Assembly (NCBI GenBank): GCA_002730525.1
Contig: PCAK01000020.1
Location: forward strand, 62,001-126,000
Length of the DNA stretch: 64,000 bases
Direction: 5' to 3'
Source: Acidobacteriota bacterium
Lineage (GTDB): Bacteria; Acidobacteriota; Vicinamibacteria; Vicinamibacterales; UBA823
Every line of letters begins with the position of its first letter. Position 1 is the stretch's first letter. Shown one piece after another: positions 44,101 through 64,000 of the stretch. The notes under the pieces were generated by a model. That model made no database searches. It saw only the letters and a program-made list of their open reading frames with translations, and was not told where the DNA came from. The translations under genes and the position numbers were made by a program.

Positions 44101-44853
44101 TCAGTCCGCCGGCGGCTGCGCTGGGGGAACCACCGGCGGCTGGCCGGTTTCGGGCACCGCAGGGTCGGCGGGCGGATCGGCGCCGGGCGGCACGTCGACT
44201 TCATCAGCTTCCTCGGTCTCCAGCTCGGCGTCGGGCAGCGCCGTGTCGGCCGGTGGAGTCTCGATGGCTGGCACCTCCGTCGCGTGGGCCGGCTCGCGCG
44301 CCATCGGTGGCTGGACCCCCTCCGAGGAACTCATCACCTGTTCGAGGTCATCGGCGCTGGCCGCAATTCGCTCGCGCGCCTGGAGATCGAGCGAGGTCAG
44401 CCGCTGCCGGAGCTCGGCGAGCGACGCGCCGAGCGTGTCGCGCGTGTCGGCCGTCACGCCGGCATCGGTCAGCGCGCGCTGGGCCGTGTCGATATCCTGC
44501 ATCGCTCGCCCGAACTGCTCGATCTCCTGGAGTGCCCGCGGCAGCATCGTCAGCACCTCGTCGAGGTTCGCGACGACGTTGGCCCGCGCCAGCGCGGCCT
44601 CGAGCTGCTCTTTCTCGGCCTCGAGAATCTGGCGCTCCAGTGCGGCCAGCTGCGCAGCCAGGTCGGCTTGCTCCTCGGACGACGCGCGTTCGAGGTCGCG
44701 CAGCTCCTGGTAGTGCAGGACGTAGCCCCCGGCGAACCCGGCACCGACCGCGATGCCGAGGACGATGAGCCAGATGACGAACGTGCGAAACGTGCGGCCG
44801 AACCCACCGCGGCCCGGCTCGTTCGCGTCACTCGGATCATCGATGATGCTCAT
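44101..44853 (-). CDS. Single-pass membrane protein with extracytoplasmic coiled coil (paralogue of 48155-49354)
   Basis: The protein has 250 residues: a short polar N-terminus, a membrane helix at about 22-47 (TFVIWLIVLGIAVGAGFAGG), a coiled coil at about 50-170 and a disordered Pro/Glu/Asp-rich tail. ALERQILEAEKEQLEAALAR and QDIDTAQRALTDAGV align with ATLERRVLEAEKTQLEHALE and ERIATARRALDAPGI of the protein at 48.2 kb, including a shared LPRAL/LPLAL hinge. The function is unknown. It lies 24 bases downstream of the NhaC gene on the same strand and is likely cotranscribed with it. Confidence 0.75.
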   Translation of the reverse strand: MSIIDDPSDANEPGRGGFGRTFRTFVIWLIVLGIAVGAGFAGGYVLHYQELRDLERASSEEQADLAAQLAALERQILEAEKEQLEAALARANVVANLDEVLTMLPRALQEIEQFGRAMQDIDTAQRALTDAGVTADTRDTLGASLAELRQRLTSLDLQARERIAASADDLEQVMSSSEGVQPPMAREPAHATEVPAIETPPADTALPDAELETEEADEVDVPPGADPPADPAVPETGQPPVVPPAQPPAD

Positions 44854-46461: not shown

Positions 46462-46692
46462 ATGGGGCGTCCAAGACAGCCGAACCAACTCGTGCACGCG
46501 GGACTGCCCGTGCTGCTGCTGCTCGTCGTCTCGGAGGCACCGGTCGAGGCCTATCTCGATCCCGGTGCCGGCAGTTTGCTCGTGCAACTGGCACTCGGGG
46601 GCGTTGCTGCCGGGGCCGTGTTCGCCAAGCTGCTCTGGCACCGTCTGACGCTGCAGTTCAAACGCCGAGACTCCGACGCCGAGAACCCCTGA
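46462..46692 (+). CDS. YLDPGAGS-motif microprotein (copy 1)
   Basis: The protein has 76 residues: a signal peptide (residues 1-31) with cleavage predicted after PVEA, so the mature N-terminus is exactly YLDPGAGSLLVQLALGGVAA. That motif is followed at once by a membrane helix and a short basic tail (KLLWHRLTLQFKRR). The same plan and motif occur in the protein at 62922. Small proteins with Y-L-D-P-G-[TSA]-G-S after a signal peptide are widespread but, to my knowledge, functionally undescribed. The methyltransferase gene starts 45 bases downstream, so the two are probably one unit. Confidence 0.8.
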   Translation: MGRPRQPNQLVHAGLPVLLLLVVSEAPVEAYLDPGAGSLLVQLALGGVAAGAVFAKLLWHRLTLQFKRRDSDAENP

Positions 46693-46737
46693 CACCGTCG
46701 GGCCGCGGCCCGACGATCCAGGGGTCAACCCAGCCAG

Positions 46738-48141
46738 ATGCCGGCGACCCGCTACGAACCGGGGTCGTTTCGCGACCCAGCCGCGCGGATCTTTCGACAC
46801 GAGAACCGCATCTTCAGGTGTCTGAGCGCGGATGCGCTCCGTGACTGGCAACACCTGTCGGACACGACTTTCTTCAGCGCATTCGTCGCGGACGGGCGCC
46901 TCATAGACACCATTCCCGTCGACGATCGCGCCGGGCTACCCGAGCTCGATCCGAGCTGGATCGCCGTGCTCGAACACCAGCCGGTGCCGGTCGTGTCGTA
47001 CCCCTACGAGTGGTGTTTCGGGATGCTGCGCGACGCCGCGCTGCTGCAGCTCGATCTATTGCTCGCCGCACTCGATGAGGGGATGACCCTGAAGGATGCC
47101 ACGCCGTTCAACGTGCAATGGTTCGGCGTGCAGCCCACCTTCATCGACATGGCCTCGTTCACGATCGCCGAACCGGGTGAACCGTGGGTGGGCTACCGGC
47201 AGTTCTGCCAGCTCTTTCTCTATCCGCTCCTGCTCCAGGCCTACAAGGACGTGCCCTTCCAGCCGTGGCTCCGCGGGAGCCTGGAAGGGATCGAGCCGAT
47301 GCACCTGCGGCGCGTGCTGGCGCTCCGGGACTATCTGCGCGCCGGTGTGCTGACTCACGTGTACCTCCTGTCGAAGGTCCAGGCGCGCTACCAGGACACC
47401 GAGCGCGATGTGAAGACCGATCTGCGAAGAGCCGGGTTCAGCGCGGCCCTCGTCAAGAACAACGTGTCCCGGATGCGGCGGCTCGTCGACGGACTGCGCT
47501 GGGATCCGCCGGACTCGACGTGGTCGGAGTACACGACGTGCAACACCTACACCGACGGCGACCAGCAACAGAAGGCGGCGTTCGTGCAGCGTGTGGTCGG
47601 GGAGCGGCGGCGGGACCTGGTCTGGGATGTCGGCTGCAACACCGGCCTGTACTCACGTATCGCGGCGGAGAACACTGGTCAGGTCGTGGCGATCGACGGC
47701 GATCACCTCGCCATCGAACGACTCTACGGCGCGGTCAAACTCGAGCCCACCCGCAACATCCTGCCGCTTGTCGGCAACGTCGCCGACCCGACCCCACCGC
47801 TCGGTTGGCGGGGCCTCGAACGGCCGGCCTTACTCGACCGGGCCCGCCCGGACCTGATGCTCTGCCTGGCGCTGATGCATCACATCGTTATCGGCCGGAA
47901 CGTGCCGCTCCCGGACTTCGTCGAGTGGCTCGCGGAATCCGGGGCCGAGGTTGTCGTCGAGTTCGTCACCCGCGACGATCCGATGGTAGAGCGGCTACTG
48001 AGGAACCGGGACGTTCTCGCCGACGGCTACACGATCGAACGCTTCGAAGCGGTGCTTTTTGAGGCGTTCGACGTCGTGGCGAAGGAACCGCTAGGCTCGG
48101 GGACACGCACGCTGTACCACGGCCTCCCACGCCGATCCTGA
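46738..48141 (+). CDS. NoeA-like SAM-dependent methyltransferase
   Basis: The protein has 467 residues. The N-terminal half (about 1-290) is the conserved region of nodulation-protein-NoeA-like enzymes: EPGSFRDPAARIFRHENRIF at the start, then LDLLLAALDEGMTLKDATPF and VQWFGVQPTFIDMASFTI, which recall a kinase-like fold. The C-terminal half is a class I methyltransferase: LVWDVGCNTGLYSRIAAE (motif I), VVAIDGDHLAIERLY (motif II Asp), LMLCLALMHH (motif IV/V). NoeA acts on Nod-factor sugars; most relatives in non-rhizobia have no assigned substrate. Its placement with the YLDPGAGS microprotein suggests methylation of a surface or exported molecule. Confidence 0.8.
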   Translation: MPATRYEPGSFRDPAARIFRHENRIFRCLSADALRDWQHLSDTTFFSAFVADGRLIDTIPVDDRAGLPELDPSWIAVLEHQPVPVVSYPYEWCFGMLRDAALLQLDLLLAALDEGMTLKDATPFNVQWFGVQPTFIDMASFTIAEPGEPWVGYRQFCQLFLYPLLLQAYKDVPFQPWLRGSLEGIEPMHLRRVLALRDYLRAGVLTHVYLLSKVQARYQDTERDVKTDLRRAGFSAALVKNNVSRMRRLVDGLRWDPPDSTWSEYTTCNTYTDGDQQQKAAFVQRVVGERRRDLVWDVGCNTGLYSRIAAENTGQVVAIDGDHLAIERLYGAVKLEPTRNILPLVGNVADPTPPLGWRGLERPALLDRARPDLMLCLALMHHIVIGRNVPLPDFVEWLAESGAEVVVEFVTRDDPMVERLLRNRDVLADGYTIERFEAVLFEAFDVVAKEPLGSGTRTLYHGLPRRS

Positions 48142-48154
48142 CCGTCCACCCAGG

Positions 48155-49354
48155 CTAGCTCGGAGGCTCGACCGGCGCGTAGGCCGGCCAGATGCCGGTG
48201 GCGTCGTCCGGAACGCTGCCGGCCCCGGCCCGACTCGGTGCCCGTCGAGAGTCCGGGCCGGCCCGCGCGTCATCGTCCGGTTCGGCCCGGGGCGCCGGCA
48301 CTTCGAGCCCGCGGATGTCCAGATCGATGAGATCGGACTCGTCGTCGACGTCGGTCCCTACCCAGGCATCGCTCATGACCAGCGCGGCGTCAGCATCCTC
48401 GTCATCCTTCTCGCCGAGCGCCGGTTCCCACCAGTAGTACCCGGCATCGAACTCGACCGGAATCTCCGCGGCCGGCTCGTCCCGCCTCGCCGCGGGCGCG
48501 TCCACCTCGATCGACGGGGTCGACCCGTGCCAAGCCGGCGGGCTGATCATGTCGGCCGCGATCGAGCGGGAGCCCGGCCCGACCGCCGTCCTGGCCGCGG
48601 CGTCCTCGGTCTCGAGCGTCACGCTCGACACGAGCCGCTCCTCGACGCAGGCTGGCTCGGGCTGCGGCGCGGCCGGCTCGATCGGCTCCCATGCCGGCGG
48701 GGTGGCCGGCCCGGCGGTCAACGCCGGCGGCGTCTCCACCGGCATACCCGCCATCGGCATCAACGGTTCGACGAACACCCCAGTGTCATCCCGTGTGACC
48801 AGCACCCGTTCGAGCGCGTGCGCACTGACCGCGAGCCGATTCCCGATGCCCGCCTGCTGCACCTGCCTCAGCTCGGTCGTGATTTCCCGAGTGATGGCGT
48901 CGAGCCTCCCGCCGGCGACCTCTCGCACCGCCTGGGAAATGCCAGGAGCATCGAGTGCGCGTCGTGCCGTTGCGATCCGCTCCATCGCATGACCGAAGTT
49001 CCGCTGCTCCACGTCGGCCAGTGCCAGCGGCAGGGGCGCGAGCACGCGGTTCAACGTCAGGTTCAGCGACGCGCGCTCGAGGGCATGCTCGAGTTGAGTC
49101 TTCTCGGCCTCCAGCACGCGACGTTCGAGCGTGGCGATGTCCGAAGCGGCGTCGGCCTTGACGGCGACCAGTTGGTGACGGAGGTCGAGGATCTCGCGCT
49201 CCTGCAGGAAGTACCCGGTCCCGAACGCCGCGGCAACCACGACCAAGAAGACGAGCGACCACAACGCGACCGCGCGCAGCCGGGAGCCGAAACTGGGCTG
49301 CATCGTCTGAGCCGGTTGATTCTCTGTCTGAGGGAAACTGTTCTCGCTCGTCAT
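48155..49354 (-). CDS. Single-pass membrane protein with coiled coil and long disordered tail (paralogue of 44101-44853)
   Basis: The protein has 399 residues from the ATG at 49354, with GGAGG 8 bases upstream. Membrane helix at about 28-50 (LWSLVFLVVVAAAFGTGYFL), coiled coil at about 52-190 carrying ATLERRVLEAEKTQLEHALE, then a 200-residue Pro/Ala/Glu/Asp-rich tail with no predicted fold. The helix-plus-coil part is clearly paralogous to the 44.1-kb protein; the tail is longer. Both lie near the NhaC/YLDPGAGS/NoeA block, which they bracket. The function is unknown. Confidence 0.75.
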   Translation of the reverse strand: MTSENSFPQTENQPAQTMQPSFGSRLRAVALWSLVFLVVVAAAFGTGYFLQEREILDLRHQLVAVKADAASDIATLERRVLEAEKTQLEHALERASLNLTLNRVLAPLPLALADVEQRNFGHAMERIATARRALDAPGISQAVREVAGGRLDAITREITTELRQVQQAGIGNRLAVSAHALERVLVTRDDTGVFVEPLMPMAGMPVETPPALTAGPATPPAWEPIEPAAPQPEPACVEERLVSSVTLETEDAAARTAVGPGSRSIAADMISPPAWHGSTPSIEVDAPAARRDEPAAEIPVEFDAGYYWWEPALGEKDDEDADAALVMSDAWVGTDVDDESDLIDLDIRGLEVPAPRAEPDDDARAGPDSRRAPSRAGAGSVPDDATGIWPAYAPVEPPS

Positions 49355-49532
49355 GACTCGACCTCCGAAGATGGCAACGCCCGCCCCCTCCCGGACCGCC
49401 GGGGAGGCTGGCGTCGCCGGCGATGCTCGGGCCGTCTCGAACGGCCCTCGTACGCGAGTATCGGCGGGCGATCCTGTGAACTGTAGTGAAGCCGAGTGAA
49501 GCGGAAATGGTAGATACGCGGTATTGATTAGG

Positions 49533-49682
49533 TCATATGACCATGCACGACGGCGCGGGTACCTTGGCCGCCGGCATGGAGTCGACCGCGGGCTCCGGCG
49601 CGCCGCCGCACCCGACGACCAGGGCACAGAACAACGCGGCGAGATATCGGTACAGGACTTCTCCTTTACGTACCACAAGCAC
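49533..49682 (-). CDS. Possible small lipoprotein downstream of mtfA
   Basis: The frame has about 49 residues. RYLAALFCALVVGCGGAPEP is a convincing lipoprotein signal with Cys in VVGC, and the mature part is only about 24 residues. The start is unclear: GTG codons at 49682 and 49676 are available, while AAAGGAG stands before a CTG closer to the hydrophobic core. It begins 11 bases after the mtfA stop on the same strand. Tentative. Confidence 0.35.
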   Translation of the reverse strand: MLVVRKGEVLYRYLAALFCALVVGCGGAPEPAVDSMPAAKVPAPSCMVI

Positions 49683-51909: not shown

Positions 51910-52341
51910 ATGAAGTTGCTCCTCGCCGGTTCCTCACATCACCCAGTGACCGCGTCCTGGCTTTCGGCCGTGGCCTGCGCGCTCGTCGTCTCGGGCTGCA
52001 CATTCGGCGCGCCCGATCCGATCGTCTACGACTTCGTCGAGCGGCGGCCGTTCTCACAACCGCTCGTCGAGCGTGAGGTCATCAACCTCGGCACCCCCGA
52101 CGCCCGCGCGCTGCTCGTCGAGGGCTGGCACGACCATGACGAACGCTGGGCCCGCCGGACGCCGTTCGTCTTGGGCGTGGGCGATCAATCGATCATCGAG
52201 TTGCCGCTGGTGGCCCGGCGCCACCTGATGGTCGAACTGATGGAGGCGGCGCTGACGCGCTCGGCGCTCCTCGAGACCAGCGAAGCCGTCATCGACGCCG
52301 AACTCAAAGATCGCCTCCTCGCGCTCGGCTACGTCCGATGA
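51910..52341 (+). CDS. Shortened jelly-roll lipoprotein, probably an internal deletion of a sulfatase-type protein
   Basis: The protein has 143 residues. The lipoprotein signal ends in VVSGC (Cys30). VEREVINLGTPDARALLVEG then WHDHDERWARRTPFVLGVGD is the first half of the jelly-roll domain found before sulfatase domains in acidobacterial lipoproteins and also seen at 63588-64000 here. It then ends in ELKDRLLALGYVR, the characteristic last residues of sulfatase/alkaline-phosphatase-fold proteins (E-L-x-x-R-L-x-A-L-G-Y). The catalytic domain is absent, so this looks like an in-frame deletion that fused both ends. It may be a free-standing short lipoprotein. Confidence 0.55.
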   Translation: MKLLLAGSSHHPVTASWLSAVACALVVSGCTFGAPDPIVYDFVERRPFSQPLVEREVINLGTPDARALLVEGWHDHDERWARRTPFVLGVGDQSIIELPLVARRHLMVELMEAALTRSALLETSEAVIDAELKDRLLALGYVR

Positions 52342-62921: not shown

Positions 62922-63131
62922 ATGGAAGTCGAATTCAGACGGCGGACGAGAACGGTCTTCCATGTCTTCTTGGTGCTGGCGGTCATCCTCCTTGCCGAGG
63001 CGCCTGCTGAGGCCTATCTCGATCCCGGCGCCGGGAGCATGCTGGTCCAGCTCGTTCTGGGCGGCGTTGCCGGACTCGCGGTGGTCGGGAAGTTGCTTTG
63101 GCACCGTTTGACCGTGCCGTTTCGGAAGTGA
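62922..63131 (+). CDS. YLDPGAGS-motif microprotein (copy 2)
   Basis: The protein has 69 residues. The signal peptide (FHVFLVLAVILLAEAPAEA) is cut after PAEA, leaving the mature N-terminus YLDPGAGSMLVQLVLGGVAG followed by a membrane helix and the basic end LLWHRLTVPFRK. It is a paralogue of the protein at 46462, with which it shares EAYLDPGAGS, LVQL and KLLWHRLT. It is transcribed away from hpnC and lies near a protein with the same jelly-roll domain as 51910, in a cell-surface context. Confidence 0.8.
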   Translation: MEVEFRRRTRTVFHVFLVLAVILLAEAPAEAYLDPGAGSMLVQLVLGGVAGLAVVGKLLWHRLTVPFRK

Positions 63132-63587: not shown

Positions 63588-64000
63588 TCAGTCTGACCGG
63601 AACGAGATCCGATCGACTTTTACCGCGGGCGCGTCCGTCGTGGGCTTGAAGTGAAGGACGAGCGAGCTGATTCGCGGGCGGTCCGGATCCGGTGGAATCC
63701 GAAACGTCGCATCCTGATATCGTTCGCCACGGACGGTGATTCGGCCCAGGCGTCTTCCATCGACCTCCAACTCTACGATCTCGTCGCGCTTGTCTGCTGC
63801 GGACAGGCGCGCGGTCAGCCGCGCGGCGCCCGACGGCAGCGAGGCGAACACCGTGGCCCGGCGGCCGAGACCCCAGGTAAACGTGATCTCGCGCCCGTCG
63901 ATCTCCTCTGTCGCGCTCCGCGACCACCCCGGACCCAGGTGCGAACCTGCTCCGTCAGTGCCGAAATCGATCGTCTGCACCCGTAGTTCCAGACCTGGAG
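63588..64000 (-). CDS. C-terminal jelly-roll domain of an exported protein (partial)
   Basis: The gene continues beyond the right edge; 137 codons lie in the window. It contains VQTIDFGTDGAGSHLGPGWS, FTWGLGRRATVFASLPSGAA, VELEVDGRRLGRITVRGERY and LVLHFKPTTDAPAVKVDRIS. This is the beta-sandwich (jelly-roll) domain with G-x-x-x-x-x-x-L-x-x-G-W-S that is found in acidobacterial and other proteins attached to glycosyltransferase-like or sulfatase-like modules. The first half of the same domain occurs in the lipoprotein at 51910. It faces the YLDPGAGS microprotein convergently across 456 bp. Confidence 0.7.
   Translation of the reverse strand, partial: PGLELRVQTIDFGTDGAGSHLGPGWSRSATEEIDGREITFTWGLGRRATVFASLPSGAARLTARLSAADKRDEIVELEVDGRRLGRITVRGERYQDATFRIPPDPDRPRISSLVLHFKPTTDAPAVKVDRISFRSD

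Follow-up and report, generated by a model that had tools for sequence, protein, structure and literature searches.

What does a small and apparently exported microprotein do beside an enzyme of the NoeA family, and what does that enzyme make? The question is raised by a 64,000-nucleotide stretch from an Acidobacteriota bacterium (here called the window, meaning the whole of the DNA analysed), in which the gene of a YLDPG microprotein (copy A, 46462..46692, + strand, 76 aa) is followed 45 bp further on, in the same frame, by that of a NoeA homologue (46738..48141, + strand, 467 aa). A first-pass annotation had reported both open reading frames, correctly, and had read them as an undescribed surface system built around a free N-terminal tyrosine peptide, with proteins encoded at 51910 and 63588 as possible partners. 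A role in surface modification is still judged most likely, and the description of the enzyme as NoeA-like with two domains was right; the protein at 51910 finds no support as a partner, with no Pfam match and no recurring association. Near the pair, two proteins (48155-49678 and 44101-44853, both - strand) each have a transmembrane segment, a coiled-coil stretch (ALERQILEAEKEQLE / TLERRVLEAEKTQLE) and a proline-rich tail, and they look like paralogues.

Copy A begins with a predicted signal peptide (46462-46551), continues through the motif YLDPGAGS (46552-46575) into a single hydrophobic helix (about 46576-46629), and ends in a C-terminal tail that is first basic and then acidic; the protein reads MGRPRQPNQLVHAGLPVLLLLVVSEAPVEA up to the predicted cut, then YLDPGAGS, then LLVQLALGGVAAGAVFAKLLWHRLTLQFKRRDSDAENP. 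Y31 directly follows ...APVEA, and C-terminal of the motif come one hydrophobic stretch and the basic tail, a pattern far beyond chance expectation. Across 127 distinct homologues, gathered with a search pattern that demanded Y or H at position 1 and Asp at position 3, members share the core Y-[LIV]-D-P-G-[TS]-G-S-x-x-x-Q, which leads into a short helix and then [KR]-x-x-W-x-[RK], and they end in a charged tail. Y1, D3 and Q12 are nearly invariant (Asp3 in 127/127, as the pattern required, and Gln12 in 97 per cent), Ser8 and Trp29 are found in 92 and 84 per cent, position 6 varies among T, S and A, and Leu replaces Ser8 in nine of the 127. Net charge averages −1.0 on the N-terminal side of the helix and +2.9 on its C-terminal side, a bias that by the positive-inside rule would place the tail in the cytoplasm. 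Close pairs of microproteins for which dS could be estimated give dN/dS of 0.05–0.39, and this purifying selection indicates a real gene.

An upstream hydrophobic region, or leader, is present in 113 of the 127 homologues, and the residues before the tyrosine in these are small: A 110, G 2 and S 1 at −1, and A 93, V 9, S 4 and T 3 at −3. Signal peptidase I is therefore predicted to cut so that Y becomes residue 1, which agrees with the earlier proposal that YLDPGAGS is the exact mature N-terminus, at the level of a predicted cleavage. About 12 homologues from Thermoleophilia, Planctomycetes and some Acidobacteriota have no signal peptide, and in these the motif stands 1–16 residues after the start codon (for example MDLPA/YLDPG and M/YLDPGFGS, the slash preceding the motif). 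Such leaderless homologues led us to reject cleavage as an essential step, and the conserved feature would instead appear to be a motif at an exported N-terminus, reached either by cleavage or through a short N-tail.

The family is much wider than this one locus. A pattern scan of GTDB genomes matched at least 588 stretches, at least 486 of which were confirmed as relatives, and the best 80 of these, fetched with their flanks for the locus analysis, span Acidobacteria, Alpha-, Gamma- and Deltaproteobacteria, Binatota, Thermoleophilia, Krumholzibacteriota, Nitrospirota, Elusimicrobia and others. The microprotein is a real, widespread and unnamed family across many bacterial phyla. A Pfam scan of 67 members gave no consistent family, an NCBIfam scan gave no match above a curated cut-off, and neither the YLDPG motif nor the microprotein appeared in the literature searched, which was short of most subscription papers. 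A tblastn search of plasmids with the microprotein alone also gave no matches, a null result attributable to a short and diverged query; the NoeA query did work there. Two hits reading ASYLDPHIRS (L249, L250) were set aside as chance matches, and long open frames at three loci (L215, L216, L252) as in-frame upstream read-through and not fusions of the microprotein.

The neighbouring enzyme is 34 per cent identical to Ensifer/Sinorhizobium NoeA over 97 per cent of the query (E 6e-68), and its AF2 model (pLDDT 94.4, pTM 0.94) together with fold searches divides it into a kinase-fold domain (residues 1–256, 46738-47505) and a class I SAM methyltransferase domain (residues 257–467, 47506-48138, both + strand). 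Because the methyltransferase domain filled the first model search, the N-terminal domain was folded separately (pLDDT 93.7); it superimposes on PKR with Z 10.8 (rmsd 4.2, 202 aligned), and Foldseek places PknG at the top (6.5e-6) and also matches CK2. Its D120 and N125 in the catalytic loop and its metal-binding, DFG-like D137 (47095..47148, + strand) are invariant in 55 homologues, as are G299, N301 and G303 of methyltransferase motif I. For the methyltransferase domain the closest structure is that of NodS, which methylates Nod factors (Z 18.8, rmsd 2.7, 181 aligned).

A further comparison is with WbdD, the enzyme of the Escherichia coli O9a O-antigen cap, in which, as in NoeA, a kinase and a methyltransferase are joined in one protein, the methyltransferase of WbdD acting on phosphate. 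WbdD is among the Foldseek matches of the NoeA model and is found in the PDB by the NoeA family profile (E 0.002, the HH pair being aligned), and the profile-to-PDB comparison also aligns the kinase catalytic residues, weakly, with the WbdD kinase loop. With a WbdD sequence taken from an O9-type plasmid locus, two alignment methods equate WbdD D82, H132, H133 and R203 with NoeA D320, H381, H382 (47878..47883, + strand) and R457 (48106..48108, + strand), and all four are invariant in the 55 homologues, the hhalign E value for the methyltransferase domains being 5.7e-10. The relation to WbdD is remote, at 23 per cent identity. In WbdD, the substitutions H132A, H133A and R203A keep phosphorylation and lose methylation of the phosphate, and the authors assign the three residues to phosphate handling (PMC3482155). 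The matching invariant residues thus predict that NoeA phosphorylates its acceptor and then methylates that phosphate, and, taken alone, a product carrying such a methyl-phosphate tag seems probable from the alignments. The two proteins differ in layout: WbdD runs methyltransferase, kinase, coiled coil, whereas NoeA has the reverse order of kinase and methyltransferase, ends at residue 467 without a coiled coil, and lies outside any O-antigen ABC-transporter cluster.

How closely, then, is the microprotein tied to this enzyme? A NoeA homologue is present in 68 of the best 80 microprotein loci, immediately downstream in the same orientation in 61, directly upstream in four, adjacent on the opposite strand in two, and beyond an intervening NoeB-like gene in one. 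A NoeB-like gene lies less than 400 bp from the microprotein or the pair in 56 of the 80, and 60 of the 71 NoeB-like genes in the fetched flanks fall within 1 kb. The first-pass annotation would have been overturned by a neighbourhood that varied from genome to genome, and these counts describe a conserved one. Since the 80 loci were picked by similarity to the window type, which favours NoeA-linked copies, the comparison was repeated genome-wide in Acidobacteriota at a cut of E 1e-3, which leaves out long phosphodiesterase ORFs and other weak matches. Of 297 such genomes, 63 carry NoeA; 62 of the 63 also carry the microprotein, which no genome without NoeA has, and the exception (G331) has a weak, diverged microprotein copy beside NoeA. 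A hypergeometric value calculated for this co-occurrence takes no account of phylogeny and does not serve as a probability. The two genes are adjacent on one strand in 56 genomes and unlinked, at distant sites, in six; in two of the latter (G190, G009) the microprotein stands beside a NoeB-like gene, the same split as that of a second copy in the window described below.

Of 241 genomes of Alphaproteobacteria, the class of Rhizobium aethiopicum, 17 have NoeA, and 15 of the 17 also have the microprotein. No NoeA turned up in eight of the 11 microprotein genomes outside Acidobacteriota that were scanned (those of L064, L080, L082, L083, L087, L088, L096 and L106, mostly drafts), so NoeA is not the sole partner of the microprotein. 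In Novosphingobium PP1Y three genes, for the microprotein, NoeA and a NoeB-like protein, follow one another and adjoin polysaccharide genes. The same three genes are consecutive on an IMG/VR viral contig (L113 4911-8750), which is possibly mobile DNA or mis-sorted cellular DNA, and in Microvirga pudoricolor (L074) one microprotein–NoeA pair is flanked by three NoeB-like genes.

The operon of the window has no NoeB-like gene of its own; one is found 15 kb off, beside the only further family member that a scan of the window returned. This copy B (62922..63131, + strand, 69 aa, motif 63015-63038) is 56 per cent identical to copy A. It stops at a TGA (63129-63131), where its counterpart in a same-genus genome (G001) continues for eight residues (RDPDAGRP); the variable tail of copy B is thus the shorter one. 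Convergent with copy B is the gene of an alkaline-phosphatase-superfamily membrane protein (63588..64000, − strand, the gene running on to 66677; L003 6589-9678; 1029 aa), which matches the Pfam Sulfatase family PF00884 (E 8e-14) and is related by BLASTP (7e-64, 6e-59) to genes directly after microprotein–NoeA pairs at two other loci (L086, L098). The sulfatase-like protein at 63588 that the first-pass annotation had suggested does belong, as the frequency of NoeB-like genes near the microprotein implies, and its relevance here comes from the adjoining copy B, which had gone unmentioned.

This NoeB-like protein has a Thr at the nucleophile position (motif PTTSLSMPAMLTG), as do 19/20, 12/12 and 20/23 members of three NoeB-like groups, with Ser only rarely in its place; in a fourth, small group the nucleophile residue is less clear. 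Formylglycine sulfatases have a Cys (or Ser) there, and from what is known of these families the Thr would make a reaction on a phospho group likelier than the removal of sulfate. They may resemble the phosphotransferases of the LtaS/EptA type within the alkaline-phosphatase superfamily, to judge from the match to PF00884 and from a Thr and not a Cys at the nucleophile position, and they differ in that several are large (700–1030 aa) with extra C-terminal domains.

The type of gene cluster has a history. The genes noeA and noeB are classic host-range nodulation genes (Ardourel 1995, as cited in PMC9758233). The nod box n5 operon nodL-noeA-noeB of Sinorhizobium meliloti and relatives carries the same NoeA and NoeB families in the same gene order, and plasmid tblastn with the window NoeA returned 65 records, mainly Sinorhizobium noeA (34 per cent identity). 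Between nodL and noeA, both Ensifer canadensis (L114 5748-5963) and Rhizobium sp. T1470 encode a 71-aa ‘hypothetical protein’ that is a YLDPGTGS microprotein, and sulfatase-like noeB comes after noeA. The small gene overlaps noeA, and its product reads ...VPAHA/YLDPGTGSMLVQ...; a matching frame lies between nodL and noeA in S. meliloti 1021. Unlike that operon, the module of the window is split and has neither nodL nor a nodulation context. The literature searched contained no paper establishing the chemistry of noeA or noeB.

Closer to the present subject is a survey of the Legionella pan-kinome, in which Lani_1194, a member of the NoeA family, is described as a methyltransferase joined to a kinase-like domain whose kinase lysine is replaced by Arg (R27 in the window protein), and a system decorating secreted or envelope molecules is proposed for it (PMC9758233). 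Over 816 neighbourhoods, Lani_1193 accompanies it in 65 per cent and Lani_1195 (NoeB, with an alkaline-phosphatase fold) in 38 per cent (PMC9758233). We suspect that Lani_1193 is the microprotein. In its main text that survey leaves Lani_1193 undescribed, and it mentions neither the exported motif nor the H-H-R match to WbdD, nor the fusions and the variant linked to sulfotransferases. The word ‘undescribed’ in the first-pass annotation thus fits only in part: the NoeA kinase–methyltransferase, its conserved neighbourhood, its kinase domain and NoeB are prior art, but the microprotein is in no paper of the literature searched, and the family, the WbdD match and the fusions appear new.

Members without NoeA come mostly in two settings. 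In the first, a neighbour resembles CDP-glycerol glycerophosphotransferase (PF04464) and/or YidC (PF02096) (L064, L080, L087, L088, L096, L106), and a PF04464-like gene also stands beside the microprotein at two further loci (L239, L240). The YidC-like paralogues (at L080, L087, L088 and L106, also L064 and L096) have an extracytoplasmic N-terminal region. In three Alphaproteobacteria the unit of leader, YLDPG motif and helix is itself the N-terminus of the PF04464-like enzyme (L236 2633-3931, L237 2651-4009, L238 3958-5223), and at L236 and L238 the neighbouring gene joins a YidC-like domain and an alkaline-phosphatase-superfamily domain in a single protein.

The second setting is that of a variant with the motif AY[VIL]GPGxG, which scores 26–38 bits with the same profile and 8–16 on average once the motif is shuffled; the reverse, GPG profile recovers DPG members. 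A sulfotransferase gene lies near the GPG-type microprotein in eight of eight cases inspected (L253-L260; L242-L245, L251), the first four sulfotransferases being recognized by PF13469 and the remaining four by a profile made from these sequences. An arylsulfotransferase (ASST) is a further neighbour at L251. Weak matches of the microprotein in ORFs of 700–800 aa had been candidates for chance; they proved to be the N-terminal AYIGPGAGF of type I phosphodiesterases (PF01663), which start with a leader that is followed by AYIGPGAGF or AYVGPGAGF and then by a helix (L224 1318-3540 in the source genome, contig C6, and L225, L227 and L261). At 14.6–22.6 bits, homology of this N-terminus to the microprotein is suggestive only.

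Taken together, the observations on the gene itself, its co-occurrence with NoeA, the folds, the catalytic residues and the fusions may be explained by a model in which NoeA is a WbdD-like methyl-phosphate tagger and the microprotein its one-helix membrane adaptor, a reading to which we give a probability of about 0.5. The microprotein–NoeA pair would form the core of a NoeA–NoeB-type envelope-modification module. The NoeA kinase would phosphorylate a glycan (or similar) acceptor on the inner side of the cytoplasmic membrane, and the methyltransferase would then methylate that phosphate to give the methyl-phosphate tag. Once the leader is removed, YLDPGAGS would lie on the outer side, just ahead of the helix, and the basic tail would reach into the cytoplasm and hold the otherwise cytoplasmic enzyme at the membrane. 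Contact with an extracytoplasmic partner, most simply a NoeB-like enzyme or a lipid-linked substrate bound by its head group, would fall to the exported motif together with the conserved Gln12, which would sit within the membrane, four residues into the helix. NoeB would transfer or cleave a phosphodiester outside. An adaptor is preferred because the protein is one helix with its tail predicted inside, because it is fused to the N-terminus of a cytoplasmic-type enzyme, and because it is constantly in the company of group-transfer enzymes and is kept without NoeA where another such enzyme is present. It counts against an adaptor that conservation peaks in the exported motif and not in the tail that would contact NoeA, and it is this outward-facing peak that suggests a partner or lipid-linked head group bound outside.

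Other readings place the modification on the microprotein itself. It might be the acceptor, a membrane carrier whose exported Tyr1, Asp3, Thr/Ser6 or Ser8 is modified or glycosylated by NoeA and NoeB or by the glycerophosphotransferase enzymes, and the near invariance of Y1, D3 and Q12, the frequency of Ser8 and the unfailing presence of group-transfer enzymes would all suit this. However, enzymes of the NoeA and glycerophosphotransferase-like types are cytoplasmic by family and the motif is predicted outside, two of the proposed acceptor positions tolerate change (position 6, and Ser8 to Leu), and a copy fused to the enzyme's own N-terminus suits an anchor more than a substrate, so we consider an acceptor unlikely. 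A free exported N-terminal tyrosine peptide, as favoured by the first-pass annotation, might be displayed for a signalling or structural role of its own, with NoeA modifying the peptide or the surface. In all 113 leader-bearing homologues the signal peptidase pattern points to a cut immediately ahead of Y, and leaderless ones too keep the motif near the N-terminus, as display would have it; but the helix starts straight after the motif, leaving about eight residues outside, and the enzyme fusions and strict co-occurrence with NoeA indicate an accessory role. Such display is accordingly judged a poor prospect beside the adaptor.

Doubt may also fall on the enzyme or on the association. NoeA could be an ordinary methyltransferase acting on a sugar hydroxyl or amine in the manner of NodS, its nearest structural neighbour, with a degenerate kinase-like domain used for binding only, and the loss of the kinase lysine to Arg (PMC9758233) points that way. 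Against this, D120, N125 and D137 are invariant, as in an active kinase, and WbdD R203 is not conserved in NodS (PMC3482155), yet its counterpart R457 is invariant in NoeA; we hold NodS-like chemistry to be improbable. Most pairs are adjacent and overlapping, and a small gene might simply be carried along in the operon with no functional link to NoeA. Six Acidobacteriota genomes nevertheless keep both genes at unlinked sites and none has the microprotein without NoeA, and purifying selection and the enzyme fusions further argue against mere hitch-hiking, which we regard as scarcely credible.

If the adaptor reading is carried over to all the settings described, the exported one-helix Y-x-[D/G]-P-G proteins could be a superfamily of interchangeable transmembrane adaptors for enzymes that place charged groups on lipid-linked or exported glycans, a generalization that we offer tentatively and at less than even odds. 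The groups added would then be methyl-phosphate, glycerophosphate-like and sulfate, with versions dedicated to NoeA, to glycerophosphotransferase-like enzymes with YidC-like partners, to sulfotransferases and to phosphodiesterases, and one version would be the uncharacterized gene of the classic alfalfa nodulation operon.

The kind of system, NoeA/NoeB modification of surface or secreted glycans, is already known by name; the microprotein subunit, the switching of partners and the residue match to WbdD appear to be new. That match gives the chemistry of noeA and noeB one testable prediction, a methyl-phosphate group. The microprotein adds an uncharacterized gene to the nodulation operon and to comparable modules in many phyla; the fusions together with the invariant motif provide a handle on how sugar-tagging enzymes may be organized at the membrane.
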